Shown piece after piece: positions 1 through 21,796 of a DNA stretch of 28,159 bases. Below the pieces are notes generated by a model. The model did not search any database. It saw only the letters and a list, made by a program, of their open reading frames with translations, and had not been told where the DNA came from. How positions within the stretch are numbered: the first letter of the stretch is position 1; the number at the start of each line of letters is the position of its first letter. Position numbers and translations under genes: made by a program. Origin of the DNA: a virus; IMG/VR virus record IMGVR_UViG_3300025118_000105, positions 1 to 28,159 of that record. One strand, given 5' to 3'.

Positions 1-3000
1 CGCTATCCGATTTGGAGATAGAAGAGTTAATGTCGAGAGAGAAAAGTAGATTTATCGAAAAGATAAAGAAAATGCATAAACTCCTCAAGTCATTCCAAGA
101 CGGCTCAATCTTCCCAGATTTCCCATCTCTATTCGGTTCAGAGGATTCACTAATACCAGAGGCACCGCCAGTTATATCCGCAGCAATGGCAACGGTGTCT
201 GAAGGACTATACTCATCGACAATAAATAACTTCAATGTATCGATGCTGCAATACGCTCCACTATGGAAGACAGCTATAGAATTTTCAACTGAAACTAGCG
301 ACTTACCAACCTTCGCCGAGTTGTCAAAACAATTGATGATAAAAGACGAATCCGCCTCCCTGTATCGTAAGCTCAACGTTGACGACAACATGACGAATAT
401 CGGCTATACGATAAATGTTGACGCCACTGGTTCTTTGGAGGAATCGGTTCAAGAATCTACTTTGAAAGATTTAGGAGTATATGAATGGCATAAAGGAAAC
501 TTTGACGCTGGGAAATACAGCGATGACTGGTGGAAAAACAATAAGGGAGAGGATGACGCCAAATTCGCACAGTTAATTAAAGATGCGGGAATAAGGTATG
601 TCGATTTATCAGAAGATGATTTTGCTTTATTTGGCACATGGGAAGGAGCTATGGTAATCGCAGCGGTAGTAGCTGTTATTGTTTTAATAGTTCTTGCAAT
701 TATATTCAGCGGCGGAAGCGCGGCAGCAGTTGCGACAGCAGCCGCAGATGTCGCCGTCGTTGAGGCAACACCCGTTATGCTAATAATGGGCGGCACAGTC
801 GCCGCAGCCGAAACAACCGCCGCCGTCGCTGGCACAGTCATTTTAACTTTACCTATAGTGGGGGGTCTCACAGTCGCAACGACAAGCTGGATACTCATAG
901 GTGTAGCCGCAGTCGCAGGTTTACTGATTGCTGGTTCAGCGGCTTTAGCATGGTGGACTAACGAGAAAAATGCCGATCTTGCATTCGCACTTCAGGCGTT
1001 TCTGCAAGTTGAGCCTAAACTAACATATCCAGAGTTTTTGGAAAAAATAGATTGTGCATACGATGGTGGAGAAATAACAGACGCCCAATATGATGAACTT
1101 ATTCCTATAGCTATTGAATTGTATGATGCAAATAAAATTGCCTCTGATCAAGTACAATGGTCGTTGATAAAAAGCGTAGCAAATCATCTCGAAGATAAAG
1201 ACGATGAAAATGGTAGTCATGAAGAGATATTTGACATTTCAGATTGGCTTGAAGTTCGAGAGGAGCCTGATATAAAGACAGAACTTATTCTCAAATCAGA
1301 AGTATCTGGACAGTGGGATGGCAAAAACAACGATGTGTTCTACACTCACGCCTATGTCAGAAAGACTCCAGCCTCCTCAAAAGAAGTCAGTCTTCCAAGA
1401 GAAGATGGTTTCAGCGAAGTAATAACATCATTTGAGCGCAGAGGAGTCAGGAGCGCTGCCGCTACCCCCAAGGAAGGCTCTATGACGCCAGCGGAAATGG
1501 CTGCAAATGCCACAAAGACTATAAGTATCCAAGACATATATGATTCTGGCACCAGTCTCGCAGAATATGATAGAGTCGAGAACAAAATATCAAACTACCG
1601 AATGGAAAATGAATCATCTCTTCTACTCGGCAGAAAAATAGCTAAACCAGATTTACTTGAGACAAGATATTCTTCGACAATCGATGCGCCTGATAAATCC
1701 ATTATGGAGCTTTTTGAGTCGCAAGCAGCCAAAAATAATGATTTGCAAGAGTATCATTTAGAATTGTTGGATATAATCGAACAATCTGGATTGATAACCG
1801 TCAGTGATGATAATGTAAAGACTATCTATAGAGACATTTGGCAGGATTGCATGAGAGCGATGGCAGAGAGAGTTTCCGACAATAGAATGTATCTAGACGA
1901 ATACCTCAACGCAATTGATTTTGAATATCCAAAACAGGACATCCTCGGATACAAAGAAATTAGTGAAGAGTCTATTGATTTGACAAGTTCAATTATGAAA
2001 CTTGAATCCTCCAACGATGACTATTGTGACACCTTGACTCCGCTTAGGCGAAGCGGCTCTATAACGGGACTCCGACTAATGATAAGAACTTTCATAGTTG
2101 AAAGAGTTCTCAATTCAATACAAGTTTTTGATACATTCAACGTAGGATTCATGACGAGCGATATGTTTAAAAAAGCAGTATTTGACGATATAAAGGTGGA
2201 GATGGAGAAATATCAAAATTCATTTGAGACAACTCTGGACGGCACAATATTCTCAGACATGAAAGAGACTGCCTCTAAGTATTTTGAAATCCAAGGACTC
2301 TTAGGAAACGAAGTTCCAGAGCTAAATACAGACAAAGAGGCAATATTAGAAATAATAAAAATGGAAATAGATGACATAAGTACAACAATAGCATCTCAGC
2401 TAAAACTAGATACACTATATCACTCATCAACTTGGGACGAGTTTGTGTTTGATGTTTTATTGACAGAAGGAGAATACCAATCTGGAGTAAATCCAGAAGA
2501 TGGAGCACTCAGAGAATTTAAACATCCATCTGTTCTTTATCCGTTTTACGCGGAAACTGACACCTCGGATAATCCAAATGAAGACGGAAGTTACACATAC
2601 ATCGCACAGTTAAAATATTTTGACAGTTTAGGGCTTTTTGGCAATGCAGGGATTGCAGTTCCAGTGATTAGAGCCGAATGTCCTGGTTCAATTCCAACTG
2701 AAACCAAAGACGGCTGTTTTGACGTTCAAACAGTGGCAGATTATAGTAAGGTGAAGAAATTGTTGTTTGAAAACGAAATCTATCAAAATTTGATATCATA
2801 TGTATTTCCATTAAAAGACGCCGCAACTCTATTATCAACATATCACCTCTCGGCAATAACCGATCCAGCAGTATTCTCAGCAACAATCGACGGAAAACAT
2901 GTCACAGACTTGTTCTCCGAAACAAAACTATCAACCCTGCAATCCTTCCTCGCCTGCGTCCACGGAGCAGGAGAAACCACATACATTGATCCGTTCTTGG

Positions 3001-3017
3001 AAAAGTTGAAAACATAA
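1..3017 (+). CDS. Large virion-associated protein with hydrophobic segment, probably 5'-truncated
   Basis: I do not recognise this family. The frame is open from position 3, so the gene probably starts upstream. Internal starts at TTG 12 or ATG 30 (a weak GAAGAG lies before ATG 30) cannot be excluded. From TTG 12 the product is 1001 residues. A strongly hydrophobic, Ala/Val/Ile-rich block spans about residues 212-316 and could hold two to four membrane-spanning helices. It ends in a Trp-Trp pair, with mixed charged, helical sequence on both sides. The C-terminal third is less hydrophobic and rich in Phe/Tyr. It lies directly upstream of the baseplate wedge genes, so a tail, baseplate or ejected virion protein is likely (inference). 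A tape measure is possible, but the long, non-repetitive C-terminal part argues against it. GAT, GTT and AT-rich codons are commoner here than in the wedge genes that follow. The gene ends with TAA, 38 nt before the next gene. Confidence 0.7.
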   Translation, partial: LSDLEIEELMSREKSRFIEKIKKMHKLLKSFQDGSIFPDFPSLFGSEDSLIPEAPPVISAAMATVSEGLYSSTINNFNVSMLQYAPLWKTAIEFSTETSDLPTFAELSKQLMIKDESASLYRKLNVDDNMTNIGYTINVDATGSLEESVQESTLKDLGVYEWHKGNFDAGKYSDDWWKNNKGEDDAKFAQLIKDAGIRYVDLSEDDFALFGTWEGAMVIAAVVAVIVLIVLAIIFSGGSAAAVATAAADVAVVEATPVMLIMGGTVAAAETTAAVAGTVILTLPIVGGLTVATTSWILIGVAAVAGLLIAGSAALAWWTNEKNADLAFALQAFLQVEPKLTYPEFLEKIDCAYDGGEITDAQYDELIPIAIELYDANKIASDQVQWSLIKSVANHLEDKDDENGSHEEIFDISDWLEVREEPDIKTELILKSEVSGQWDGKNNDVFYTHAYVRKTPASSKEVSLPREDGFSEVITSFERRGVRSAAATPKEGSMTPAEMAANATKTISIQDIYDSGTSLAEYDRVENKISNYRMENESSLLLGRKIAKPDLLETRYSSTIDAPDKSIMELFESQAAKNNDLQEYHLELLDIIEQSGLITVSDDNVKTIYRDIWQDCMRAMAERVSDNRMYLDEYLNAIDFEYPKQDILGYKEISEESIDLTSSIMKLESSNDDYCDTLTPLRRSGSITGLRLMIRTFIVERVLNSIQVFDTFNVGFMTSDMFKKAVFDDIKVEMEKYQNSFETTLDGTIFSDMKETASKYFEIQGLLGNEVPELNTDKEAILEIIKMEIDDISTTIASQLKLDTLYHSSTWDEFVFDVLLTEGEYQSGVNPEDGALREFKHPSVLYPFYAETDTSDNPNEDGSYTYIAQLKYFDSLGLFGNAGIAVPVIRAECPGSIPTETKDGCFDVQTVADYSKVKKLLFENEIYQNLISYVFPLKDAATLLSTYHLSAITDPAVFSATIDGKHVTDLFSETKLSTLQSFLACVHGAGETTYIDPFLEKLKT

Positions 3018-6788: not shown

Positions 6789-9700
6789 ATGTCTAACGAA
6801 GACAAGAGGGCAAATCAAGTTGTATCCTCAAAAAACCTTTCTGGATTAGATGTAGAGTCCTCAGAATACGTCGCAGAGTTCCTCGAAGACGCCAACAGAG
6901 TTGAGCCTCACGTAGACTTTGGCAAACCAGAGAACTTCGCCAAATACGGCTCGGCACAAGAATACTACGATCAAGCTCTCAAGTGGATATATAACGAATA
7001 TCCTTATGATGGCTCTCTAAAAGAAAAGTTAGAGTGGAAAAACAACTCAACTCTCCTAGACACCTACATCTTCGACAACCGCTACCCCAAAACAACAGGT
7101 TATGTAACACTAACCAGTGACGGCTACAACGGGACATCTGTCACCGCTGATGGATACGGAACTACAACCACTGACGAATACATCTCATTCCAAGGTGGAC
7201 CTCACACAACTTACGACTCACTCACGGGCGTAACGCTCAAAGAAGTCTTTGACTCAAAGTCAAATGTCTGGGACGACACCGTAACCTCGTCAGCGGGCGC
7301 AGTTGACGCAACAAGAGAGTCAAACCTCAAATGCGACATAGACGAAGGCGTAACGGTAGAGTTCTGGTTACAAACAGGCTCAATAGACGCATCCGTAACC
7401 GAAAAACAAGTCGTCTTTGACTTGTGGAACGGAATCGACTACGATGATGCAGACTTAAGCGCCTCATACGGACGCATAAGAATAGAACTAACAAGTTCAG
7501 TAGGCTCTCCGTTCCTCGTCACTGTTATGTCTGGAACAACAGGCTATTCGCAAGAGTCGATAGGTTCAGGGCTTGACCAAGACACACTATCCAGTTGGAA
7601 ACACTGCGCTTTCAGTTTCGCAAGCGGCTCAACTGGCGATATCGTTACAAAGTTCTATCAAAACGGAACGCTAAACGATACACTCACCACAGGTTCAAAC
7701 ATCGGCGAGATACTAAACCCGATAGAAGCCCGCCTCGGTGCCCTCATAACAGAGCCCTCTGGCTCATCAGCCCCAGCAGGTTCTGGTAAGCTATCTGGCT
7801 CACTTGACGAGTTCCGATTCTGGAAGACTCGCAGAACGTCAAAAGAGATAGGACGCTACTGGTTCACTTCAAACCTCGGCGGAGGAACAAACACCGACGA
7901 CGCCAACCTTGACTTGGGCGTTTACTACAAGTTCAACGAGGGCATAACAACCAACGATACAACCGACGCATCCATATTAGACTATTCAGGACGCATCTCA
8001 AACGGAACTTGGGAAGGATACCCAGGTTCATCTGCTCGTAGTACAAGTTCGGCAATAGATGCCGCATCAGCAGGAACAGAAGACAAAGATCCTATTATCC
8101 ATTCTATCCACCCAGAAATTGCCGCCCTCGCAACCGAACTACAAGGTTCAGGTTCCGTATGGGACTATGAGAACAATTCATCTCTATTTTACACTATGCC
8201 GTCTTGGATAATAGACGAAGACGAAGGAAACGGAGACAGAGGAGACTTGAAGATACTAACCCAAATAATGGGAAGTTACTTCGACAACACAGACTTACTC
8301 ATCGGCGAATTGCCTAAGCTAAATGTCGCATCCTATCCAAGTAGCAGCACGCAAGGCGAACTATACAAGCCATATCCATACGCCCAGACAGCACTACGCT
8401 CACACGGACTAACGGCACCAGAACTATTTTCCAACAGCAGCGTCCTCGAATACTACGCAAATAGGTCCGAGACACAAGAATACGAAAAAGACATCCACGA
8501 CGTCAAGAACCTCATTTATAACAACATCTTCAACAACCTGACAGACATCTATAAGTCAAAAGGAACCGAGAAAGCGTTCAGAAACTTGATACGATGCTTC
8601 GGAGTTGACGACAGTCTCATAAGAATAAACTCTTACGCAGACAACAACACATACAAGTTCGAGACTAAATACAGAACAGACTCTCATAAAACAAAAGCAG
8701 TCAACTTCAACCATGTTGACAGATTCGGCGGAACAGTCTATCAGAACTCTTCATCAGGCGATAGTAACACAGTCTCCTTCATCTCGGGTTCAGACTCAGC
8801 GGCATACGAAGATGGTTTCCCAATAACTATAGAGACGGAAGTCGTCTTCCCAAAGAAGATAGGCTCATCTGAAGAACACGCAGATACACAAGAGTTCCCA
8901 CATTTATCAGCATCCCTATTCGGTATGCACACGGCAAACGACGCCGACGCCGCAGATATGACTTGGGCATCGTCAGATGACGCAGAGTTCCAAGTATTCG
9001 CAGCAAGAGACACTTTATATTCAAAAGACGCCAAGTTCGTCATGTCGTCATCAGTTCTCGGCGAAATAGAAACCGACTACTACCTCGACACATATAACAA
9101 CTCCAAGTGGAACTTTGCCGTAAGGCTGAAACCACACGGATATCCTCACTCGTTCGCATCGGGCGCACTCGATGCCGCCAACGACTACACCGTTGAGTTC
9201 TACGGCGTCAACTACATCGCCGACAGAAAGATGAACGAGTTTTCTCTCTCTGGCAGCGTTTCTAAGACGCTCGCAGAAAGTTTCCTAACAGCACCAAAGC
9301 GCCTTTTTGTAGGTGCCCACAGAACGAACTACACGGGCAGCGTGCTACAGAAGAGTGATGTAAAGACAACTTCACTCCGATACTGGATGGACTATCTTGA
9401 CGATACCGCCATCAAATACCACGCATTAGACCCAAGCAACTTCGGACACCCTCGTCCAAACCGAGGAGCATACCTATTAGAATCAGACTTGCCCGACTTG
9501 GAAGTGCCCGAGATAGAAACTCTCGCACTCTTCTGGGACTTCGACGGCGTAACGACATCCGACACCGACGGCGAGTTTGTAGTAAGCGACATTTCATCAG
9601 GTTCAGTCGCCGACTCATCCCGCTACGGCTGGTTAGGCAACATACTGAAAATGCAACACACGGGGAAAGGTTTTGATTTCCCAGAAAGCGACACAGATGT

Positions 9701-12700
9701 CGTCGAGAACCAATACCTCCACGCATCAAAGCAACAACTTCCAGAGATGGTATTCGGAGACGATAACATCCGAGTTCTATCACAAGAAGAGACAGAGGTG
9801 TTTACAAAGGAAACTCGCCCAACAAGCACCTATTATTCGTTCGAGAAGAGTATGTATCAAGTCATCTCCGACGAGATCATCAACTACTTCGGCTCCATCG
9901 TTGACTTCAACAACTTAGTCGGAGAACCAAAGAACAGATACCGCCAAGAATACAAGGGACTGAAGCACATCCGTCAGTTCTTCTTCGAGAGAGTCGGCAA
10001 CACACCAGACTTAGACAAGTTCGTCAACTACTACAAGTGGATAGACGCGACACTCGAAGAGATGCTTATGCAACTCACACCAGCATCCGCAAGACACAGC
10101 GACGGCATCGACAACATCGTCGAAAGCCACATCCTTGAGCGAAACAAATATTGGAACAAGTTCCCGACACTAACTCAGCACGCATCAACAGAAGGTGGAG
10201 CAGAGAACACAACTGCTCTCCCATCTTGGAAGCACGCCCATCGCCCCATCTCAAACTTAGAAAACGAGAACTGCGAATACTGGAACGACTTTGCCGAGAG
10301 AACAGACGCTCCAATAAGTAGCGGAGACGCAGGAGTTGACGCAAGCAGAACAGCAATACTAAACGCCAAACTCCAAACCACGAACAGAAGCTACACTTCA
10401 CCTCAAAGAAACAGTGTAGAACTAAACCCAGCAATCCGAGGTGGAGTAAACTACTCGTCAGCAAAGAAAACAGACTTGTATCGTGGAATAAACATGCCAC
10501 ATGGTCCAATGACAAGTATGGGGCTTCCAAAGAATGTTCTGTTTATGGAAGGAACAGACGTAAAGTCTCTCCCAGATTGCAACGACGACATCCCAGCAAA
10601 GAGAAAGATGTCATTTGGAACACGAGACGGCAGAACATATGACGGAGGCATAACTGACGGCATAACAGGCGAAATAGCAGCACCATTCAATATTTACAGC
10701 GCATCAGCGGGAATGGGTGGATATAACTCATCAGTTCAAAGCGGATTCCACGCAGGCGTCCAAATAACAAACTTACACAATGACTCCTATGGAGATGTCG
10801 CAGAAGTTCCAATGCAGGGAACATTCACCGAAGTGAACGTAGGTGGACACCAATCACGCCACATATCACTAAACGACGGAACCGACAACCAATACAACCG
10901 CCCCGAGAGTTGGAGACTTCTTGTCGGAACAGCGTCAATAGGACTCACAGGTCCAGACTATGGCGGTCCATACCCAGATCCAACTCGTCAAAGAGCATGG
11001 TTCTTCCGAGAAGAGACAGCAAAACGCCCAGTCAACATCAAAAACATCAAACAAGCAGACGGAGTTCTCGCAAACTACAACAAGACTTACGAAATAGTTC
11101 AGACATCTGGACGAAGCACTAACAACCTTTGGTTAGGAAATCACACAGCCTCTCTCCTCCCAGAAAGATACGCCACAGACTTCCCTCAAACAACAAATGT
11201 TCACACAATGGTTGGAGTTAGACCTTACTCAGGAAACTTCTCCCGTGGAAATACATTTATACCAGGAGCCAATGTCCTCTCGGTAGCAGAAAATGTAAAA
11301 GCATTGAGAAGAGTTGGAAACAGGTTCTTCCCCCATAAGACAGCAACTCCCGAGAAAAGAACAATATTCCCTCTCCCCGACAGAGGCGTCCAAGATGCCG
11401 TAATAGTTGAACGCTTCTCAGCACCAGGTGGTCCAGAGATAAACTCACTCGGCTTCCTTGACGTAATGGCGGCAGAGAAATCAGTCTACAATGCCCTCCC
11501 TTGGAGAAACCTTTCCGTATTAGGTTCAGGTTCAGGCGAAGATGTCCAAGCTTTCGTCACTAACGATACAATCAAAGTGAACGATCACCTCGGACACCGA
11601 CGAGGACTAAGAACTCTAACCTCACTCCACGCAGGTCCATTCGGTTCTGACGCCACATACGGCAGCATTGTCTCATCACGCTATTCCGAATTTCCATCAT
11701 TCCACAAGATAAACAGAAACGCCTTGTTAAGAATGGAAGGAGAAGAGGGCTCATATACAACAGCGTCATCTTACGACAACTGGAGCATCCAGCACGCCAT
11801 CCCGCAAAACGACTCCCAATACTCTTGGATTACTGGCTCATTATCAGAAGGCGTAACCGCTTTCGGACACGGCACAACACCGACATTTGTATCCTCATCC
11901 ATGCCCGACTATTCAGGAAGCTATACTAAAGATCCAACAGTTGGATCTACAACAGTTCATGAACTGCCGCCAGTTGATTTCGTTGGATTGAACAGCGTTG
12001 TACATGATGCTGTTGGAACTGAGTTTAACATTTTATCATCATCGGGAGGAACTATAGTGTCATATGATGGAGGACTGGTTCCAGAAGGCGTTCTCTTTGT
12101 CAACACAATTGCTTCAAACATCAGTTTCAACGCCCTAATGCTTCATCGCAACGGTGCATACGGATACCCTTCTTGGAAGCAAATAGACAACCGCTACCAC
12201 CCTCTCGTTAGAAATATGCGCGAGAACAACACAGTATCAATAATAGATCCTGAGACAACAAGGGAAGTAACCCGCAGAAAGTCTGGATACCTCGGATACA
12301 AGTGGAGCCCAACTCCAGCAAACGATGGCGACATATTCGGAATCCTAGATCAATATAATGTCACAACAGACAGATCAGTTCTCAGCTACAGAGAACCAGC
12401 GATAGTCCAAAGATACGCTCCGCTAAAACTCCAAGTTGATATGGAGATAGGCGGAAAGATAGAATCAGTAACTATTGACGCTACTTATGCCAACGAAAAA
12501 TCGCACTTCTCCAACTCCAAGCTTGACATGAATCTCAACTTGTACAACTACGGCGAGAGCGGAGCAGACTTAGTATTAGGCTCACTCGCAGACGGAACAT
12601 TAGTCGGAGACTTAAAAAGTATAAAATACACAGAAACTGTCTATCCTAAAGCAATAAACACTTATCTATCTAAAATCCGAAGCAGAACCGAATATGTCTG

Positions 12701-15611
12701 CCCATTCTGGCGTGACGCACGAAGCGACAGGGCAGAAGAAAATGCTGTAGGAGCAATGGGAAATATTATCCCATCTCAGAGTATGTGGAATCTCGACGGA
12801 CGCCTAGATCCAGATGATACAGCAACAGTAGCATCGGAAGGAGGAACAGAAGGTGTTCTACAAAATTCCTATAACACAGTTCACAGCCGTCCAGGTCCAA
12901 CAGCGGGATGTCCTCTCGTCGCTGGTTCCGTGGCGGACATAACTGCCTCTGCGACATATACAAGACGACACACTAACGCAGCCCCCGCTACGGCGCTTCC
13001 GTTCTCATCGTTCATAACGAATTCATCTGGTGGCATTATACCATTCTCTGGCGATGCTCCGTGGGACACCGCAGCACAATCTGGAAAGACTCCATTCTAC
13101 GACTCGTATGGAGAATACGTGGAGAACATGAGACTCAAGGGCAAAGACTATTCCATAGTCCCTGAATACAGAATGAGCGATAGGATAGAAGATTATCTCA
13201 TAAACGGAGTCAATCCGTTTGAAGATTCTGCGTTATTCAGCATTACAGGCGCTGTTTCTGCCTCGTCATCTACTACCGACAACTTCTATACAGTCTACAG
13301 TCACTCTGATTTCATGAAATATTTTGATGTAGTTGAGAGTGAAGCAGAACAACAAGCGGGAATGAAGGCAACAGATATAACAGTTAAATGTAAGGCACTT
13401 CTAAAACTACTGCCATACGACGGATTCTACCCAGCAACAAGGACTGTGCAGATGGCGACATTGTTTTCGTCATCGTATGGAGAACATGTTTCCAGTTCTG
13501 CATCTAGTTCTGTCGGTGGTGTTCAAGAGAATGGAGCAGGTTCTTTCCGCCCCTTCCTAACTCCTGTCTTCGCACCTGGTATTGTCTACAATACTGTGAA
13601 ATCAGGATTAGCGGTAGATTTCCCCATCATGACAGGTGCTTACAGTATCACCTCTTCAACTAATCAGGAAAGTTGGTATATAAAAGAGGATAATTTCCAC
13701 TCTAGGGTGCCGTTTGAGGCAATAATTGAACCCCAAGTATATCTGAAAAATACTACACTAGCAGACATGGAACCGCACCCATCTGCATCTATTGGAGGAT
13801 ATACTGGGGAAGCTTTGGCAGAATGGAACGGAGCAGGTGACAATAGGTATAAACTAGCTATGAATAATTTCTTAGCAGAGACGCCAGAGTTTTTCTTGAA
13901 AAATGGAACATTTACTTCATTCTTTTCTGACACAGAAGAGAATTTTAATGTCGCCGAGGCAGGCACTACTTATAAAATGAGAGTAGTTCTGAGAAAATCT
14001 CACAACGGCTCTGGCTCCGCTGGGCATCCTCAAATTGCAGACGGGCAAGAAACAATATGTATGTACTCTCGCCCAACAGCATTCGGTCCTCCATCGTTCG
14101 GGTGTATTTCTGGCAATGGCGGCTCTCAAAATGGATACAACGCTCCATTCACGCCCCCTTACTATGATGGCTCTGCAAGAGCGATATTGGAGTTTACTCC
14201 AACGGAAACCAAGAAACACACCCTTGAGGAGATACTATCTCAAACGACTGCCTCATATTCCAGATACCTAGATTTAGACGACTGCACCGACTCAGGAGAA
14301 GGTCCACAAACTCAATTTAGAGTTAATGATAACGCTGTTCAAGTGTCTGCTTCAGTAAATCTATTTGGAACAACTCTCGGACTTCAAGATTTATTAAAAT
14401 ACGAAGGGGTAAACCTTTCAACTCAAGAGAGCAGATGGTGTATCCAAACAAAATTCGAGACACCAATATTAAACTTCGTCGATGCTTCCGCTTCCGCTAC
14501 GCCAATTACAGATACTGGAGATTGTAAAGGCGGCATCAGAACCCGCCCATACGGGATGTGGCATCAATACGGACGCCTCCCGCAAGGTGACGAGGGAATT
14601 TATATGGAGCTTGATAACTTTTCAAGCGAAAACAGCCCATCTTTAGCTGACTTGGTTGGATTCAGTAAGACGTCCGAAAGACTCGGGCAAGTCGCCTCCT
14701 CCAAAACCATTAGCGAAGCGGTCGTCGCAGTCCCATTCATAGAAGTTGAGAACTCTCGTCAGTTCTTCGATGTAACAGTCGGAGAAACAATGAGCGACTC
14801 GGTAACAAAAATGGTAGACGCAATGAGTAGATTCGTATTCCCTCCGAGTATGGACTTCGTAAGTAACCCAGAAGATGTAAATCCGTTCGCGATGTATGTC
14901 TTTGAGTTTGAGCATCAGTTGAGTCAACAAGATTTGACTGATATCTGGCAGAACTTACCTCCACGCATTGGACGAGCGTTTGACACTACAACCCCATTAG
15001 ACTCTTCCGAGATAGTGCAAGAGAAACAAGTGACTCACTCTCTCGTATGCGGAGAGCTTTTAGAAAAAGCCGACGCCAAGCTTCAATGGATGATTTTCAA
15101 AGTAAAACAAAGGGCTCAGACAAACTACTGGGATAAAACAGTAGCAACCAATCCAACACTTACAGATCCAGACAAGTCTGGTTTAGTCGTCACGACGATG
15201 CCAAAAATCGCACTCCCGACAGCAGGCGCTGGAGGAGTGCTAAAAGACAATACCAAGGAATACAACTATAATTGGCCTTATGATTTCTTCTCTCTCGTAG
15301 AACTAGTAAAGATAGACGAAGAGATAGGATTCACAAAGGACAAAGTTTCAGGAACCGATACTCTAAGAGAATTAGCAGACGCACTTGTGATGTCCAATGC
15401 AGCTTCGTCGCTCGGCGCAGTAAATACTAAAACAGATATAGCGATAAGAGAGACTAATTTATCTGATTTGACAAAATCGTCGAAAGGCACATCAGAAAAC
15501 GCTCAGGCGGGTTCCGTCCAAGAGTTCATCGCAACTGATGGCAAGGCAACGCTCACTTCTTTTCCCAGTAGTGTTCCAGATAAAATGTCAACTACTAACA
15601 AACTAAAATAA
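6789..15611 (+). CDS. Giant 2940-residue tail/baseplate protein with LamG-like domains and a wedge-like core
   Basis: One uninterrupted frame starts at ATG 6789 with AGAGGAA just upstream, 1 nt after the previous stop. A first LamG/concanavalin-like region lies at about residues 186-385, with Val-Glu-Phe-Trp at its start and Leu-Asp-Glu-Phe-Arg-Phe-Trp plus Ile-Gly-Arg-Tyr-Trp near its end. Residues 471-606 look like a tail-wedge core: a Pro-Ser-Trp-Ile-Ile helix, Phe-Asp-Asn, then Asp-Ile-Tyr-Lys-Ser-Lys-Gly-Thr and a Leu-Ile-Arg-Cys-Phe-Gly motif, as in P2 gpI-type proteins. A second LamG-like region covers about 679-880. Helical segments (1031-1060 and 1112-1128) precede a long beta-rich, Gly/Ser-rich remainder. 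An aromatic motif, Gly-Ala-Tyr-Gly-Tyr-Pro-Ser-Trp-Lys, sits near residue 1789. The gene follows gp25, gp6 and a decoration gene, so a gp7/gpI-equivalent wedge subunit fused to surface-binding domains is my inference. Exact function is unproven. Codon usage is patchy around 11930-12110 and 13230-14200. Confidence 0.85.
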   Translation: MSNEDKRANQVVSSKNLSGLDVESSEYVAEFLEDANRVEPHVDFGKPENFAKYGSAQEYYDQALKWIYNEYPYDGSLKEKLEWKNNSTLLDTYIFDNRYPKTTGYVTLTSDGYNGTSVTADGYGTTTTDEYISFQGGPHTTYDSLTGVTLKEVFDSKSNVWDDTVTSSAGAVDATRESNLKCDIDEGVTVEFWLQTGSIDASVTEKQVVFDLWNGIDYDDADLSASYGRIRIELTSSVGSPFLVTVMSGTTGYSQESIGSGLDQDTLSSWKHCAFSFASGSTGDIVTKFYQNGTLNDTLTTGSNIGEILNPIEARLGALITEPSGSSAPAGSGKLSGSLDEFRFWKTRRTSKEIGRYWFTSNLGGGTNTDDANLDLGVYYKFNEGITTNDTTDASILDYSGRISNGTWEGYPGSSARSTSSAIDAASAGTEDKDPIIHSIHPEIAALATELQGSGSVWDYENNSSLFYTMPSWIIDEDEGNGDRGDLKILTQIMGSYFDNTDLLIGELPKLNVASYPSSSTQGELYKPYPYAQTALRSHGLTAPELFSNSSVLEYYANRSETQEYEKDIHDVKNLIYNNIFNNLTDIYKSKGTEKAFRNLIRCFGVDDSLIRINSYADNNTYKFETKYRTDSHKTKAVNFNHVDRFGGTVYQNSSSGDSNTVSFISGSDSAAYEDGFPITIETEVVFPKKIGSSEEHADTQEFPHLSASLFGMHTANDADAADMTWASSDDAEFQVFAARDTLYSKDAKFVMSSSVLGEIETDYYLDTYNNSKWNFAVRLKPHGYPHSFASGALDAANDYTVEFYGVNYIADRKMNEFSLSGSVSKTLAESFLTAPKRLFVGAHRTNYTGSVLQKSDVKTTSLRYWMDYLDDTAIKYHALDPSNFGHPRPNRGAYLLESDLPDLEVPEIETLALFWDFDGVTTSDTDGEFVVSDISSGSVADSSRYGWLGNILKMQHTGKGFDFPESDTDVVENQYLHASKQQLPEMVFGDDNIRVLSQEETEVFTKETRPTSTYYSFEKSMYQVISDEIINYFGSIVDFNNLVGEPKNRYRQEYKGLKHIRQFFFERVGNTPDLDKFVNYYKWIDATLEEMLMQLTPASARHSDGIDNIVESHILERNKYWNKFPTLTQHASTEGGAENTTALPSWKHAHRPISNLENENCEYWNDFAERTDAPISSGDAGVDASRTAILNAKLQTTNRSYTSPQRNSVELNPAIRGGVNYSSAKKTDLYRGINMPHGPMTSMGLPKNVLFMEGTDVKSLPDCNDDIPAKRKMSFGTRDGRTYDGGITDGITGEIAAPFNIYSASAGMGGYNSSVQSGFHAGVQITNLHNDSYGDVAEVPMQGTFTEVNVGGHQSRHISLNDGTDNQYNRPESWRLLVGTASIGLTGPDYGGPYPDPTRQRAWFFREETAKRPVNIKNIKQADGVLANYNKTYEIVQTSGRSTNNLWLGNHTASLLPERYATDFPQTTNVHTMVGVRPYSGNFSRGNTFIPGANVLSVAENVKALRRVGNRFFPHKTATPEKRTIFPLPDRGVQDAVIVERFSAPGGPEINSLGFLDVMAAEKSVYNALPWRNLSVLGSGSGEDVQAFVTNDTIKVNDHLGHRRGLRTLTSLHAGPFGSDATYGSIVSSRYSEFPSFHKINRNALLRMEGEEGSYTTASSYDNWSIQHAIPQNDSQYSWITGSLSEGVTAFGHGTTPTFVSSSMPDYSGSYTKDPTVGSTTVHELPPVDFVGLNSVVHDAVGTEFNILSSSGGTIVSYDGGLVPEGVLFVNTIASNISFNALMLHRNGAYGYPSWKQIDNRYHPLVRNMRENNTVSIIDPETTREVTRRKSGYLGYKWSPTPANDGDIFGILDQYNVTTDRSVLSYREPAIVQRYAPLKLQVDMEIGGKIESVTIDATYANEKSHFSNSKLDMNLNLYNYGESGADLVLGSLADGTLVGDLKSIKYTETVYPKAINTYLSKIRSRTEYVCPFWRDARSDRAEENAVGAMGNIIPSQSMWNLDGRLDPDDTATVASEGGTEGVLQNSYNTVHSRPGPTAGCPLVAGSVADITASATYTRRHTNAAPATALPFSSFITNSSGGIIPFSGDAPWDTAAQSGKTPFYDSYGEYVENMRLKGKDYSIVPEYRMSDRIEDYLINGVNPFEDSALFSITGAVSASSSTTDNFYTVYSHSDFMKYFDVVESEAEQQAGMKATDITVKCKALLKLLPYDGFYPATRTVQMATLFSSSYGEHVSSSASSSVGGVQENGAGSFRPFLTPVFAPGIVYNTVKSGLAVDFPIMTGAYSITSSTNQESWYIKEDNFHSRVPFEAIIEPQVYLKNTTLADMEPHPSASIGGYTGEALAEWNGAGDNRYKLAMNNFLAETPEFFLKNGTFTSFFSDTEENFNVAEAGTTYKMRVVLRKSHNGSGSAGHPQIADGQETICMYSRPTAFGPPSFGCISGNGGSQNGYNAPFTPPYYDGSARAILEFTPTETKKHTLEEILSQTTASYSRYLDLDDCTDSGEGPQTQFRVNDNAVQVSASVNLFGTTLGLQDLLKYEGVNLSTQESRWCIQTKFETPILNFVDASASATPITDTGDCKGGIRTRPYGMWHQYGRLPQGDEGIYMELDNFSSENSPSLADLVGFSKTSERLGQVASSKTISEAVVAVPFIEVENSRQFFDVTVGETMSDSVTKMVDAMSRFVFPPSMDFVSNPEDVNPFAMYVFEFEHQLSQQDLTDIWQNLPPRIGRAFDTTTPLDSSEIVQEKQVTHSLVCGELLEKADAKLQWMIFKVKQRAQTNYWDKTVATNPTLTDPDKSGLVVTTMPKIALPTAGAGGVLKDNTKEYNYNWPYDFFSLVELVKIDEEIGFTKDKVSGTDTLRELADALVMSNAASSLGAVNTKTDIAIRETNLSDLTKSSKGTSENAQAGSVQEFIATDGKATLTSFPSSVPDKMSTTNKLK

Positions 15612-15638: not shown

Positions 15639-16664
15639 ATGGAATTTTTTAACAAGAAAGAAGAAGTCTTAGACTTGCAGCTAACCCAGTATGGTAAGTA
15701 TCTATTATCAATTGGAAAACTGAACCCTGCGTATTACACTCTCCACGACGACAATGTTATCTACGACCGTCAATTTTCTAATAGCTCTTCTGCGGAAATA
15801 CAAAATGAGGCGAGAGTAAGAATACAATCAGATACTCCAATCCTAAAGACGCAATATAACTTCGTATCTCTAGACTCTATGCAATCAAAAGATCCAGAAT
15901 TCCAAGACGACAAGGAAAGAACTGGCATAATGGCTCGCCCCCTCGCCACATCAAACCTCGGTTCGGACAAGATACCATCGTGGAACATAAACACGCTCGG
16001 CGGAACATTGTTGACAGGAAGCACTACTCCGACGACAGTAGCATCTGGTTCGTCAATAGTTCAAGAGATTCCTCAAATAGGTGCCGAGGTGACATATTAT
16101 ATAACCCCAGTGACGATAGATAATACATTTACAGAAGGAGAATTGGAGGAAATAGCTCTTGGACAGGCAGACGGCATACCTCAAGATGTTTTACAAGGAC
16201 TAGATATCACCTTCAGTGTAGAAATGTTACCAGACGGAAGTTCGTTCTCTATTGAACAAGACGACTTGATACTACAGATAGTTGAAGACAATGCACCAAT
16301 GGGAAATGACAACTTTGAAGTCGAGATATTCCAAGTCGAGACAGAAACAGTTGACGACATTGCTACCGAAAAACTCATCCCAATGGTATTCAAAAAAGAA
16401 CCAATACTGATAGTAAACGACATTCTTGTCGATGCAGTCGAAGAAGACGATGTAGAAATAGACTCAACATTCGTAGAATATTACTTCGACTTGGAACTTG
16501 ATGGAGAGATAAGTTCAGATATAATATGTCCAAAACTCGTCAATGCAGACAAAGACATATATAAATACGCATTCAAAGAGTTCGCCTGTCCAGACATTCA
16601 ACCAAACTATCAATATCTAAGTCCGTATTCTCAAAAAGAAACTGACACAGAGTGTGGAGATTAG
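15639..16664 (+). CDS. Acidic virion protein with N-terminal module shared with the 21864 gene
   Basis: The product has 341 residues and is very acidic, with many Asp/Glu runs after residue 160. The first ~45 residues share a pattern with the protein encoded at 21864: Leu-Asp, two residues, Leu-Thr, two residues, Gly-Lys/Arg, Leu, Gly, then Leu, one residue, Asp-Asp and a Tyr. The middle part has Gly/Ser/Thr-rich linkers and predicted beta strands. The C-terminus has a Tyr-Tyr-Phe-Asp-Leu stretch, an Ile-Cys-Pro turn and ends with Glu-Cys-Gly-Asp. I recall this N-terminus from environmental phage virion proteins but cannot name a function. Start choice: ATG 15639 is forced by an in-frame TAA at 15630. 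The ribosome site is poor, and a TATTTAAT box ends 5 nt before the ATG. It follows the giant gene by 27 nt and the next gene starts within 3 nt of its stop. Confidence 0.8.
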   Translation: MEFFNKKEEVLDLQLTQYGKYLLSIGKLNPAYYTLHDDNVIYDRQFSNSSSAEIQNEARVRIQSDTPILKTQYNFVSLDSMQSKDPEFQDDKERTGIMARPLATSNLGSDKIPSWNINTLGGTLLTGSTTPTTVASGSSIVQEIPQIGAEVTYYITPVTIDNTFTEGELEEIALGQADGIPQDVLQGLDITFSVEMLPDGSSFSIEQDDLILQIVEDNAPMGNDNFEVEIFQVETETVDDIATEKLIPMVFKKEPILIVNDILVDAVEEDDVEIDSTFVEYYFDLELDGEISSDIICPKLVNADKDIYKYAFKEFACPDIQPNYQYLSPYSQKETDTECGD

Positions 16665-16666
16665 AT

Positions 16667-17275
16667 ATGACTTGTAAATTATCACCGATAATTAGTGTTG
16701 ATAGTGTTGAACTCGACGTTTCGCCATATGTAAAAGTATCTGTAGTAATCAAAGGCGCGTTCTCTGATCTTCTCAAAGACGGAGAACTGTCTGAATACAT
16801 TAGAGCAGTCTGCATATTGTCAATATACGATCCGAGCAGTGGAGCAATGGTAGCTCCGCCAGAAGCAATTCTCGGAACAAATAAACACTGGGGAGATTTA
16901 GAGTGGTATAACAGCATGGGCTGGGATGCATATCTCCGAGCAGAAAAAGTTCTCCCAACAGACTCCGCTGTGTTTGATATTGACTTATCAGATATAGTAA
17001 GAGCAGGAGAAGTTATAACTCAAGACGACAAAGTTTCGTGGAATAAGACATATCTCTCCTACTTTACCTATATTCAAGTAAACACTCAGCAGATGGCAGA
17101 GGACTTCAATATAGCGATTGCCGACGAGTACAAAGGAATGGCTGGCGATTATGAAACAGGAGTCATAATGATAGGTGGAGTAGTGGTTGATTCCGATGAA
17201 CGCTCGTTCAATGTTCGAGACTTGAGAGAAGTAGTGGAAGAAGAGCCAGTAGATGGAGGTAGTTGTTCCCCATGA
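16667..17275 (+). CDS. Unrecognised protein in the virion gene cluster (202 aa)
   Basis: I do not recognise this protein. ATG 16667 is preferred to GTG 16652 because GGAG at 16656-16659 sits 7 nt before the ATG, and the GTG would overlap the previous gene. The product has 202 residues and reads as a compact alternating beta/alpha protein. It has an N-terminal strand pair (Val-Glu-Leu-Asp-Val and Val-Lys-Val-Ser-Val-Val), a central segment with two Trp around residues 70-80, and an acidic tail ending in Gly-Gly-Ser-Cys-Ser-Pro. There are no membrane segments or signal peptide. Its stop TGA overlaps the next ATG (ATGA at 17272-17275), so the next gene is likely translationally coupled. A structural or assembly role is inferred only from the neighbours. 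Confidence 0.75.
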   Translation: MTCKLSPIISVDSVELDVSPYVKVSVVIKGAFSDLLKDGELSEYIRAVCILSIYDPSSGAMVAPPEAILGTNKHWGDLEWYNSMGWDAYLRAEKVLPTDSAVFDIDLSDIVRAGEVITQDDKVSWNKTYLSYFTYIQVNTQQMAEDFNIAIADEYKGMAGDYETGVIMIGGVVVDSDERSFNVRDLREVVEEEPVDGGSCSP

Positions 17276-18855
17276 CAAAATCTAACTCACATTTCACCGA
17301 CTTAATGATAACCAAAGATATTTCTGGTAACGCAGACTTCATCTTCGGCGTAGATATGGACAGGATGGCAATAGACAACTCGGCATATTCCGCCCTCATA
17401 GCAGACATGGCTGATGTCGCCAAGAGACAAATCGCAGCAAACAGCGAGATATTGTCATTCAACATCAACCGACGACAAGTAAAAAAAGAACTGTCTTTAA
17501 ACTCTCTAGGTAGTCCACAAAAGCCAGAAGTATTTAGCGACGAAACAATATCACATCCAGTGTTAGGCTCTATGAATGAGATGAAAGAAGTGCCGATAAC
17601 AGTATCTGGAGGATCAAGCGGAATAAAATACCTAACAGCATCAGATATAGGACTATCAAATCAGACAGCAGGGACATATCAATATGAACTTTCCATATCA
17701 ATCGTAGATGGTTTCATTCCGACAGTGAATAATCTCCTCAAAAAACTATACAAAACAAGCAGTGAGTTGGACAGATATCTTGCTCTCCTCGACATTCCAG
17801 AGAACTATGACTCAAAAGGACGAAGAGTAAAAATATCAATAAAAAAATCAACAACCGATAGAATGTCTAAATCATATGTCGATGCTATCTCTTATTTTAA
17901 AAATCTGAAAGATATCGATGTAGAATACAAGAGAGCATCCTCTCTGATTGCATCTCGTGGAGCATCGAAGGAGAGCATAGGAACTTTTCAAAAGCGGCTA
18001 AACGCCGTCATAGATAAAGTCGAAAGGTTAATATCTAAGACAGGGACGGGAGTCTCGCCATCCAGCACAACAAATAAAGCCGCAAACTCTGGCTTCTCTA
18101 ATGTTTCGATAGTAGAAATAAAACAGTCGTTCAAAAACACTATAAGCGTCGAATGCAGGGACGATAAATACGTTGACTATTTCAAAGGAAAGGGCAACAT
18201 AGGCGGAGGATTGAACACATATTCCAGCACCGAGGTTAAAAATAGCACACCAGAAACTATTTATACAGAATGTGCGAAGACTCCACTAGAGATGTTACAA
18301 ACAAGAGGAGTGTCACTCTTCGTAAGTCCTTCTTCTGAAGACATTGTGTGCGAGACAGACAAGAAAGAAACAATGAAAACTGAAAAGTATATCGGATCAT
18401 CCGCAATATCAACAGGTGGGTTACTGAAAAACAACTTAAGTCCAATAGATTTATCAACAGTTTCGATAGGAAGTCTCGTGAAGACAATAGATATAAGCGC
18501 AGCAGTGGCACCAATGACATCAAAGCTATCTTCCGCAAGCACTTTTAAGCACTCTGTCAACAATATCACAAAGATACAGACAGATCCTGTGGTAGCTTCA
18601 TGTGCCATTGATGACGCACCAGTCATGTCTTCGCCTATTCTCACTTCTGCTATATCGAGAACAATGGTGCTTGTCGCACCTCAAGCCGCAGATATGGAAA
18701 TGTGTTCAACTGGAGAAGCAATATCTATGCTAAAATCCCTCGAATGGAAACCAATCGAAGAGGTAAGCGGCATAAAGGGGGCAACCATGTTGTGTATGCA
18801 AGATGACGGACAACTTGAAGTGGCGAACGGATTCTTCTTAATGGAGATGAAATAA
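17272..18855 (+). CDS. Unrecognised protein with central helical region (527 aa)
   Basis: I do not recognise this protein. ATG 17272 is chosen over TTG 17263 because GGAGGT at 17255-17260 is 11 nt from the ATG but only 2 nt from the TTG. The N-terminal ~150 residues have mixed strands and a Met/Asp-rich patch. A central region (about residues 150-265) is Lys/Glu/Leu-rich and looks helical, possibly coiled coil. The C-terminal half is rich in Ser, Thr, Ala and Val with several scattered Cys (Glu-Cys, Val-Cys-Glu, Ser-Cys-Ala, Met-Cys). It ends in a short Met/Phe-rich segment, Phe-Phe-Leu-Met-Glu-Met-Lys. The ATGA overlap upstream and TAATG overlap downstream place it in the middle of a coupled gene chain. 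A virion structural role is an inference from context. Confidence 0.76.
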   Translation: MTKSNSHFTDLMITKDISGNADFIFGVDMDRMAIDNSAYSALIADMADVAKRQIAANSEILSFNINRRQVKKELSLNSLGSPQKPEVFSDETISHPVLGSMNEMKEVPITVSGGSSGIKYLTASDIGLSNQTAGTYQYELSISIVDGFIPTVNNLLKKLYKTSSELDRYLALLDIPENYDSKGRRVKISIKKSTTDRMSKSYVDAISYFKNLKDIDVEYKRASSLIASRGASKESIGTFQKRLNAVIDKVERLISKTGTGVSPSSTTNKAANSGFSNVSIVEIKQSFKNTISVECRDDKYVDYFKGKGNIGGGLNTYSSTEVKNSTPETIYTECAKTPLEMLQTRGVSLFVSPSSEDIVCETDKKETMKTEKYIGSSAISTGGLLKNNLSPIDLSTVSIGSLVKTIDISAAVAPMTSKLSSASTFKHSVNNITKIQTDPVVASCAIDDAPVMSSPILTSAISRTMVLVAPQAADMEMCSTGEAISMLKSLEWKPIEEVSGIKGATMLCMQDDGQLEVANGFFLMEMK

Positions 18856-20420
18856 TGGCAATAATAAAATGCGATGATGAACTACCACCAGCAGAAGATC
18901 CGTCAGGAGGCGACGGTGGCGATGGCGTTGCGGCTGAGTCTTACGTCGAACAGGACGAGGTTAGTTTAGGTAAAAAGTTATTAGCAGTAGAGTCTGATTT
19001 TTTTACAGACACTTCTTTAAAATCTCCTTTGAAGAGAGACGCTCAAGCGCCATTTCTGACAGAAAAACGCCCCTCGGGTATCTCAGATCAATTCAGGGCA
19101 GAGTTCGGCAAATTCTGGGTTCAAGATACAAGCGATAAAGAATCTGCAATGGTGTTTTTGAATTGGAGTCTTGGGAATCAGCAAGCGCACGAAGACTGGG
19201 AAGGTATATTCGCACCAACCGTTTTTGAACTCGAAGAAGACGGCGAACTCATAGAGACATCTTCCACTGGCTCGATAGGACTCTCCCAATATACGCAAGC
19301 GTATGTCGCCACTGCATTAGAAAGTTATTGGGGCGATATAATTGAAAATTTAGAAGCATCAGATATTTGGACAGCCTACACTCAAGGAATCGAAGCCGAA
19401 AGGGGCAGCTTTTCCCGTCCAACCCCTTTAATACCCGCCGACGACTCAACTTTCACAGATCACGCATTCCGAATGAACACTCCGTTCTCCAAGAAAGAGT
19501 TAGAAATGTTCGCAAATATATCCGACTCGTGTAAGCCCTATGTAGCAGATGTAGAGTCAGACTACGACTTCTTCGCCAAAGCATACGAAGAGGGGATAAC
19601 ATCAACAAATGTCCCTGAAAATGCCTTACCTCATCTCTACTCAGAAGTTCAGAAAGGCGAGTCTGATGAAATGAACACCGATAAATTGCCAGAAGGCTAT
19701 TTCCGAGCTTGGATAAACAATGTTTTATCTGATCAAGCCGAGATGAACGATATAGCAGAAGACTACGAAAATGTAGCGATACTGGATAGTACCGTAGACG
19801 AGAGAAACGACACAACCAGTGCATTCGAAATACTAATGTCGTATGCAAATCGAGAAAACCTATTCCCTATGAATATAAACATCGAGGTGGATACGAACAA
19901 TATTTCATATTTAATGTCCGAAGCAGAAGATGTGGGGATGGTTGACGATATAGTGAGACTCCTAATGGGCGACGGAGAAACAATTCCAGCCGATCATATA
20001 ATCATCAATCAAATCAATCCAGAAATTTCAGCAGAAAGCGATGAATCTATGCAATTTTCTGCGACACTTTATTCAGGCGGGATATTGCAATCTATCTCAC
20101 CTACGTGGGCTATTAACACGACACAGTACGGAACTATTACTAGCGATGGGTTGTTTACTCCTATAGATGAAGATTCAGAAGAAACAACTGCTACTCCCCA
20201 TACTGTTAAAGTTACTGCATATTATGAATCAATGGAAGCTTCTGTAGATTTACTTATCCACCCAGTCTATTCTCCTGAACCCGAGGACACAGAACCAGGC
20301 AACCGTGGTGCTGCTCCAAAGATTGACGATCCCTTCGGAACGTTAGTTAAAATGGGCGAAGACAATATTGACGATGGAGAGGTTGAGGGAGCCACTATGG
20401 GAGAACAATCAGAACAATGA
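18855..20420 (+). CDS. Acidic virion protein with C-terminal Ig-like (Big_2-type) domain
   Basis: The product has 521 residues and is strongly acidic. A Gly/Asp-rich N-terminal linker (residues 10-30) leads into a mainly helical, Trp- and Glu-rich body (about 50-370). Residues 376-470 resemble a bacterial Ig-like domain: an opening strand, a central Trp-Ala-Ile, then Gly-Thr-Ile-Thr-Ser-Asp-Gly-Leu-Phe-Thr, and closing strands Thr-Val-Lys-Val-Thr-Ala-Tyr and Ala-Ser-Val-Asp-Leu-Leu-Ile. Such domains decorate phage tails and capsids and may bind surface carbohydrate (family knowledge). The tail after residue 470 is a Pro/Glu/Asp-rich linker. The DNA for the Ig segment (19980-20259) uses GAT, GTT and ACT far more than its surroundings, consistent with domain exchange. 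ATG 18855 overlaps the preceding TAA by one base, and the stop overlaps the next ATG (ATGA). Confidence 0.78.
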   Translation: MAIIKCDDELPPAEDPSGGDGGDGVAAESYVEQDEVSLGKKLLAVESDFFTDTSLKSPLKRDAQAPFLTEKRPSGISDQFRAEFGKFWVQDTSDKESAMVFLNWSLGNQQAHEDWEGIFAPTVFELEEDGELIETSSTGSIGLSQYTQAYVATALESYWGDIIENLEASDIWTAYTQGIEAERGSFSRPTPLIPADDSTFTDHAFRMNTPFSKKELEMFANISDSCKPYVADVESDYDFFAKAYEEGITSTNVPENALPHLYSEVQKGESDEMNTDKLPEGYFRAWINNVLSDQAEMNDIAEDYENVAILDSTVDERNDTTSAFEILMSYANRENLFPMNINIEVDTNNISYLMSEAEDVGMVDDIVRLLMGDGETIPADHIIINQINPEISAESDESMQFSATLYSGGILQSISPTWAINTTQYGTITSDGLFTPIDEDSEETTATPHTVKVTAYYESMEASVDLLIHPVYSPEPEDTEPGNRGAAPKIDDPFGTLVKMGEDNIDDGEVEGATMGEQSEQ

Positions 20421-21796
20421 GTAAAGTAACAACAACAAAAGAGTTCGCCATATCAAAAGAAATAGTGGCGCAAAAAACCGATGGTGGAGAGAAACAACTT
20501 ATAAACGAACAGAGTGAAGAAAACGTAGAACTCGTTGATTTAGAGATGTGGTTGGCGACATATCTAGATCCAAGCATTGTATACAGCAATATTATAGAAA
20601 ATGCAACAATAATGGGAGAGCCAATCGATGAAGAGTGTCAGTCATTCTTCGACACGCTCCGAGCACTTCTAATGGCAGGGAAAATACAAAATATAATAAC
20701 CGACAACTTTCGCTCCTATACAGCCATTTTAGAAGGTGAGTTAGCATACAACGAAACTCTCGTCTATGAAATAGAAAAGTCATCCCCAGACAATTCTGAA
20801 ATCATTCAGAGAACATTCATACCAAACTTGACGAAACTTGAATTACTAAGATATATCGACACGCAAGTAAAATATAACAAAGAATACACTTACGAAATAT
20901 TCGCTCACCAATTTATCGTTGGAACTGAGTATAGTTATAAAACTAAAGATCTGAAAGCAACGTCTGTTGAGTTCTACGTCACCTACAAGCCATCTCTCAA
21001 AATAGCCCGCATACCAATATTCAAGCAAAACGCACGACTACTTGACGCAGCGCCACTCCCACCAAACGTGGAACTCGTCCCATACAAAGGCGTATTCAAT
21101 GAGTTCCTCATAAATCTAAGCGGAAACTCAGGCGACATAGAAGAAATGCCCGTAATAATAACTGACGCAGACGCAGACTTCTACAAAAAATACAGAGAAG
21201 CACGAGGACTTGACGAGGATGCCCCAATAAGGTTCGCCAATGACGACGCATCAGGCAGGTTCGAGATATACAGAACCGATGTCGCTCCAAAGTCATACGA
21301 AGACTTCCGAACAAACCTCTACGCTATTGTAGGCGCAGTAGATGTCGCATCAGCGTCAATGAAATCAAAAGTTCAAACAAATAAGAAATACTACTACACA
21401 TTCAGAGCGATTGATCAACACGACAACCGCTCAAACCCATCCCCAGTATACCAAGTAGAGATAGTGGAGAACAATGGAATGATGTTTTTCCTTTCATCGG
21501 TGTATCAATTCCCGACAATAGAAGACAAAACTACACACGCAAGAACATTCCGCAGATTTCTGAAAATCAATCCAAATATGATTCAATCATTGGTAAATAT
21601 GGAAGAGACGTTCGCGCACGATTGGTGGAATCCCGTTGCTGAATCTGCCTACGATGTTTCTGAAGTAATCCTCGGCAAAGCAGAACAAGACGTCTGGACT
21701 AAAAACTTCAAACTACGAGTGACTTCCAAGCACACAGGAAGGAAGTTCGACATAAATCTCACTTGCAAGACTCAATATAACAAACAAGACGAATGA
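20417..21796 (+). CDS. Virion-associated protein with FN3-like segment (459 aa)
   Basis: The product has 459 residues. ATG 20417 overlaps the previous TGA in ATGA. The N-terminal ~110 residues are acidic and helical; the middle (about 130-270) is mixed alpha/beta with many Tyr and Lys. Residues 279-353 resemble a fibronectin type III-like or related beta sandwich: a Phe-Glu-Ile-Tyr-Arg-Thr strand, a Tyr-Tyr-Tyr-Thr-Phe-Arg-Ala-Ile-Asp strand, then Asn-Arg-Ser-Asn-Pro-Ser and a Tyr-Gln-Val-Glu-Ile strand. The C-terminus ends in Lys/Arg-rich strands. I do not recognise the whole family. It closes the overlapped gene chain and is followed by the longest gap in the structural region (67 nt) with a hairpin and a promoter-like box, so it is a likely operon or processing end. 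A tail-fibre or baseplate accessory role is possible but unproven. Confidence 0.75.
   Translation: MSKVTTTKEFAISKEIVAQKTDGGEKQLINEQSEENVELVDLEMWLATYLDPSIVYSNIIENATIMGEPIDEECQSFFDTLRALLMAGKIQNIITDNFRSYTAILEGELAYNETLVYEIEKSSPDNSEIIQRTFIPNLTKLELLRYIDTQVKYNKEYTYEIFAHQFIVGTEYSYKTKDLKATSVEFYVTYKPSLKIARIPIFKQNARLLDAAPLPPNVELVPYKGVFNEFLINLSGNSGDIEEMPVIITDADADFYKKYREARGLDEDAPIRFANDDASGRFEIYRTDVAPKSYEDFRTNLYAIVGAVDVASASMKSKVQTNKKYYYTFRAIDQHDNRSNPSPVYQVEIVENNGMMFFLSSVYQFPTIEDKTTHARTFRRFLKINPNMIQSLVNMEETFAHDWWNPVAESAYDVSEVILGKAEQDVWTKNFKLRVTSKHTGRKFDINLTCKTQYNKQDE

Follow-up and report, generated by a model that had tools for sequence, protein, structure and literature searches.

A 2,940-residue gene at the gpI/gp7 position of an uncultured contractile-phage lineage is a candidate enlarged baseplate wedge bearing LamG domains

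The baseplate genes of P2 run in the order W-J-I, where gpI (Tail_P2_I, PF09684) is a protein of 176 aa with no LamG domain and no counterpart of the C-terminal module B described below. In T4, gp7 is a large wedge protein that is encoded after gp6 and occupies a peripheral position. The isolates with a related gp6 (Flavobacterium phage immuto and Microcystis phage Mel-JY01), as well as the metagenomic sequence LR756508, carry a gene of 1,265-1,400 aa shortly downstream of gp6, which is unannotated both in Immutovirus (immuto35A_161 of vB_FspM_immuto, 1,265 aa) and in Mel-JY01 (WWT39511.1, 1,336 aa). Glycans and proteins are common ligands of LamG domains, which are found in fibres and adhesins too. 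In AlgoCIS, Alg12 consists of a gp7-like part fused to a gp6-like part, and the gp7-like part has been proposed to act as a hotspot of evolution that lies at the rim of the baseplate and binds different tail fibres; the portion of that paper available to us reports no LamG/B architecture (PMC8894135).

The window analyzed here, a 28,159-nt stretch of a virus record, contains the giant gene P0001 in a comparable position (Table 1). Its frame has no internal stops and fills 8,823 of the 28,159 bases (31%), in agreement with the uninterrupted gene described in an earlier note on this DNA. Relatives aligned in frame along residues 1-2848 with 31-62% identity, two of them (L001 and L003) spanning that whole region at 61% identity; P0001 is therefore a real gene rather than a chance frame. 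The splitting frameshift that the earlier note had considered was not seen, the frame being intact and the relatives collinear with it. A first scan of IMG/VR recovered 12 stretches encoding relatives and further scanning at least 568, which, together with the in-frame alignments, place P0001 in a large uncultured lineage; the frequencies given below describe the best 80 loci of each scan rather than the whole lineage. A tblastn search of P0001 against 50,697 phage records gave no match, and beyond one LamG domain the protein has no model in Pfam, NCBIfam or PHROGs. Although so many public viral-contig stretches encode this protein, no description of it was found in the literature searched; the parts of the deep-ocean and Mediterranean phage literature available to us do not mention lectin or concanavalin.

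Table 1. Coordinates of the features of the giant gene and its neighbours in the window
Feature	Position	Strand	Basis
gp25-like baseplate wedge/sheath-initiator gene, 133 aa	3056..3457	+	Pfam PF04965, E=5.6e-13; PHROG baseplate wedge
gp6-like baseplate wedge gene, 600 aa	3498..5300	+	PHROG 219/10646, E ~1e-16
495-aa tail gene between the gp6-like gene and P0001	5300..6787	+	Conserved in relatives, no named domain
Giant gene P0001, 2,940 aa	6789..15611	+	ATG start, ORF call and in-frame relatives
LamG1, residues 170-361	7296..7871	+	Pfam PF13385; family HMM 172-361; Foldseek pentraxin/LamG
Wedge-like helical domain, first half, residues 440-621, with ...IYNNLTDIYKSKGTEKAFRNLIRCFGVDDSL... motif	8106..8651	+	hhalign to isolates' genes
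LamG2, divergent beta-sandwich, residues ~628-866, nested in the helical domain	8670..9386	+	AlphaFold2 model, Foldseek LG4-5, hhalign
Wedge-like helical domain, second half, residues 1020-1122, ...PASA...VESHILERNKY	9846..10154	+	hhalign; AlphaFold2 helices
Variable linker, residues 1123-1727; slots for LamG insertion or gene splits in relatives	10155..11969	+	Comparison of relatives
Module B, residues ~1728-2860, folded part ~1861-2790	11970..15368	+	AlphaFold2; separate gene in some relatives
C-terminal tail, residues 2861-2940	15369..15611	+	Unmatched in most relatives
341-aa gene, comes after B in relatives	15639..16664	+	Neighbourhood comparison

Pfam and PHROGs verified the gp25 and gp6 labels that had been assigned from the sequence, and the gp6-like gene has a full-length homologue in Mel-JY01 and Immutovirus (~30% identity). 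The label "DNRLRE" for the 495-aa gene found no support in Pfam, PHROGs or NCBIfam. In the relatives, the genes follow the order gp25, gp6, X, giant gene and 341-aa gene. The contractile sheath family PF04984 was detected in 8 of 15 large relatives, in four of these above the curated cut-off, indicating that the lineage is contractile-tailed.

Profile alignment revealed that residues 440-1123 of P0001 match the Immutovirus, Mel-JY01 and LR756508 genes (hhalign 99.7%, E=1e-25), and the isolates' HMM matched the core of the window's family. P0001 shares with the Immutovirus and Mel-JY01 genes both the place after gp25 and gp6 and a two-part helical core; its first half, which contains ...DIYKSKGTEKAFRNLIRCFGVDD..., carries a KGT motif, and its second half ends in PA(S/R)A...L.R.K, as in the isolates' family. 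The AlphaFold2 model of residues 1-1180 (85 sequences, mean pLDDT 79.7, pTM 0.64) comprised two beta-sandwiches, at residues ~180-345 and ~628-866, and two sets of helices, at 442-603 and 1022-1094; the helical region proposed earlier is thus present and resumes after LamG2. In the Immutovirus gene, the two helical halves are almost adjacent and LamG2 is nearly absent, which indicates that LamG2 of P0001 is nested in the helical domain. The Immutovirus and Mel-JY01 genes also differ from P0001 in having neither LamG1 nor module B, and they are ~1.3k residues long compared with 2.9k.

The gene order of P2 (W-J-I) corresponds to gp25-gp6-P0001 in the window, with one conserved gene intervening before P0001. 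The Tail_P2_I family matched P0001 at residues 587-645 (window 8547-8723) with E=0.002 and 12.3 bits, below the curated cut-off of 20.6; it also matched 7 of 40 relatives, always within the giant gene and at overlapping profile positions 65-133, and none of the 40 above the cut-off. Three family profiles aligned a gpI profile that we built at the same point, a KGT..A.R..I...G motif (E=0.078, 0.0039 and 0.0069), although two of them come from the same sister group and are hence not independent. Sequence and profile comparisons of the core gave no significant match to T4 gp7 (E=0.43) or to P2 gpI. Membership in the gp7 family by sequence was accordingly rejected, and the likeness to gp7 lies in the large wedge-position gene after gp6. 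The 50 best PDB matches listed for the N-terminal model included no wedge protein, and PDB sequence searches with the N-terminal part, module B and the isolates' cores gave no meaningful match. The motif signals combined with the gene order make the P2 gpI/T4 gp7 position the best reading of the core, with its sequence membership below the cut-off. The wedge-like component postulated in the earlier note therefore stands as a core of helices that occupies the gpI/gp7 gene position and is homologous to the isolates' genes; the gpI/gp7 identity proper is consistent with position, homology and the sub-threshold motif, but no significant fold match accompanies it.

LamG1 was the only domain that Pfam recognized in P0001, with Laminin_G_3 matching residues 183-354 (E=1.3e-8; 35.5 bits, above the gathering cut-off of 27.6). 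The same model matched 21 of the 39 family members scanned, and the family HMM found the LamG1 slot filled in every relative covering the region. LamG1 and the inserted domains of relatives are members of the Laminin_G_3 (PF13385)/pentraxin-type concanavalin-like domains, from which LamG2 differs in being divergent and nested. Foldseek comparison of the N-terminal model with the PDB gave, among the 50 best matches listed, 39 with E<=1e-3, nearly all of them pentraxin, LamG or concanavalin-like, so that the concanavalin-like fold anticipated in the earlier note is found in the predicted structure. The alignments with laminin LG4-LG5 pairs extended over ~700 columns, which equals the spacing of the two P0001 sandwiches; this length suggests that both sandwiches of the model are matched by such pairs. 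LamG2 had no Pfam match, and its match to the LamG profile was weak (hhalign E=2e-4, probability 44%; controls 0.09-0.74). Of the two LamG regions claimed earlier, the first is thus recognizable by Pfam, HMM and fold, and the second, on the indirect evidence of the ~700-column alignments, shares the concanavalin-like fold, with weak support from its sequence. The two do not flank the helical region as had been described: LamG1 precedes it, but LamG2 lies between its halves.

The C-terminal part had been described as lacking any nameable domain. Our AlphaFold2 model of residues 1701-2880 (62 sequences, mean pLDDT 77.5, pTM 0.81) showed a mostly disordered junction (1701-1860) followed by one large mixed alpha/beta domain (~1861-2790), and a Foldseek search of the PDB with module B returned no match (best E=0.34, query-normalised TM <=0.05). 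The description therefore holds as far as names and PDB relatives are concerned, although the region is not just low-complexity but contains one confidently predicted domain. In BFVD, module B had nine matches with E<=1e-3, which represent seven proteins with identities of 19-44%; the named match was from an uncultured marine virus, and we take all seven proteins to belong to module B's own family. The best TM of 0.77 indicates that models made separately arrive at the same fold. Module B was absent from the neighbourhoods of T4, P2 and the isolates. In our second sample, B appeared without the core solely in loci whose start lies no more than 2.5 kb ahead of the B ORF; none of the loci with enough upstream sequence had B alone, and we rejected its independent occurrence. 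Judging from the model, module B may be a new fold; its large size, the confidence of its prediction and the lack of structural relatives in the PDB make it a good target for cryo-EM.

These results suggest, with a probability of roughly 0.7, that P0001 is a contractile-tail structural protein in which the wedge at the gpI/gp7 position has grown into a modular platform that carries sugar-binding-type domains, a function predicted from the features above. The two-part helical core would correspond to the wedge component that follows gp25/gp6 in simpler systems, at the rim of the six-fold baseplate; it would join the wedge ring beside gp6 while LamG1, LamG2 and B project outward. In this lineage, the core would have been enlarged by an N-terminal LamG domain, the nested LamG2, a flexible middle (which takes up further LamG domains in part of the relatives) and module B. 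Six copies could then form a wide outer baseplate collar with many sugar-binding-type domains, which may contact polysaccharide of the host surface or of particles and anchor the fibres encoded next door. We infer in this scheme the location in the virion, the copy number, the carbohydrate binding and the capacity to work equally as one or several polypeptides. The hotspot proposed for AlgoCIS fits an enlarged wedge, and the gp7-like part of Alg12, as described in the portion of that paper available to us, resembles P0001 as the same kind of re-engineering (PMC8894135). If our reading is correct, the wedge itself bears lectin-type domains, and part of the host contact would take place on the baseplate body.

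Comparison of the relatives revealed that the chain is encoded either as a single ORF of 2,783-4,986 aa or in divided form, with splits at the A/B junction (~1650-1730), at ~1980-2070 or at ~1270-1300. The single gene of the earlier note is thus correct for the window but not fixed in the family, in which two or three genes can encode the same chain; in one locus (L178), LamG1, the core and B are three genes. The longest version in our survey, of 4,986 aa, lies at 5231-20191 of L031, and L152/L153 carry a 3,060-aa A gene with four LamG domains (cut at the locus end) and a 2,004-aa B gene. Several downstream split genes have a start preceded by a purine-rich, ribosome-site-like stretch (CGGAGAGGATTAA-ATG in L005 and CGGAGGCTAAAA-ATG in L059). 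The fused form occurred in 59 of 75 scored rows of the first sample and in 60 of 73 informative loci of the second, two samples that overlap, so that the counts are not additive. On the core tree, at least eight changes of state were required, and for the fused label alone, seven changes were forced by well-supported branches. The rows near the base of the gp6 tree, rooted on the isolates' group, were mostly fused, albeit with low basal support, and the evidence leans towards an old fusion. One gene versus several at the same linkers constitutes a natural experiment in the fusion and fission of a structural protein.

Extra LamG domains were present in 26 of 91 loci (about a quarter), with Pfam E-values down to 3e-32. 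They occupied slots at ~1153-1222, 1458-1538, 1623-1780 and 2007-2102 and, in two loci, a place beside LamG1; the slots at 1623-1780 and ~2007-2102 coincide with gene-split regions. The 82 loci of the isolates' sister group had no B, and LamG was undetected in this gene; B and LamG1 therefore appear, from these sequence comparisons, to have been added in the window's lineage and to define it. The variable number and place of the LamG domains suggest contact with changing surfaces, and it seems to be of little consequence whether the chain is made as one polypeptide or as several, which is what flexible linkers between domains would lead one to expect.

The location of the gene splits in defined linkers, the disorder predicted for most of the A/B junction and the three-gene arrangement of L178 are also what would be seen if P0001 were a precursor cleaved post-translationally at the split linkers to give LamG/core and B proteins in the virion. 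Such processing would be compatible with a wedge and would change the mature form; however, a flexible linker accounts for the same facts without cleavage, and we regard it as unlikely. Marginally less probable still is that P0001 is a tail fibre or adhesin in the baseplate operon whose helical part is merely an attachment domain. The variable number and position of its LamG domains, the LamG domain in another Mel-JY01 tail gene (L014:32161), and its fibre-like length and flexible linkers are in keeping with a fibre. Against this, two distant phage groups conserve the helical core at a place shortly downstream of gp25/gp6, sister phages that lack LamG and B still have it, fibre-like genes are encoded separately further downstream, and B is one compact domain rather than a repeat fibre. 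The joining of two ordinary genes through an assembly or sequencing error has a negligible probability: some relatives do have two genes here, and the split L002 is nearly identical in its core to the fused L044, so that such errors may occur in the data, but the many independently assembled relatives, most of them fused in both overlapping samples, rule out an artefact. The L002 split is itself doubtful as a genuine split and may be an assembly error.

With the enlarged wedge as our preferred reading, we put forward a broader proposal tentatively, at somewhat less than even odds: that B is a new ~1,000-residue fold from which a widespread lineage of uncultured contractile phages forms its outer baseplate, and that the giant gene serves as a plug-in platform, its linkers accommodating inserted LamG domains or fission of the gene, so that lectin swaps on the wedge, and not on the fibres, retune host contact.

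Three further leads were discarded. A match to PHROG 33400 at residues 2607-2675 (E=0.002) was treated as chance, the window protein alone matching among 35 members. The cyanophage marker Photo_RC (PF00124) was found in none of 15 relatives. A prophage or host link was rejected as well: the sole genome_contigs match was a partial copy in the "chromosome" of a WOR-3 bacterium MAG (L099, CP070664.1 2746112-2767590), where a partial B module and further + strand ORFs stand beside opposite-strand genes at the join, which is probably chimeric.

Several other genes of the window deserve mention. A large ORF directly upstream of gp25 (3-3017), cut by the window start, has a weak tape-measure PHROG match, and several relatives have ORFs of 1.6-2.1k aa at this position. 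Downstream, the ORFs at 16652-17275 and 17263-18855 lie in different frames, have GTG/TTG starts and overlap by 13 bp; they are collinear with a single 879-aa ORF of L003 (20184-22823) and probably represent a single tail gene interrupted by an indel, or else a genuine split. The ORFs at 18855-20420 and 20417-21796, which share an ATGA overlap, correspond to one 947-aa ORF in L003 and are thus split in the window and single in the relative, the opposite of the giant gene. Finally, the ORF at 22768-23790 has a C-terminal module of ~80 residues in common with several Mel-JY01 tail genes (L014 24990, 27134 and 30003), Immutovirus and LR756508, which by sequence comparison is a recurrent tail-protein C-terminus.
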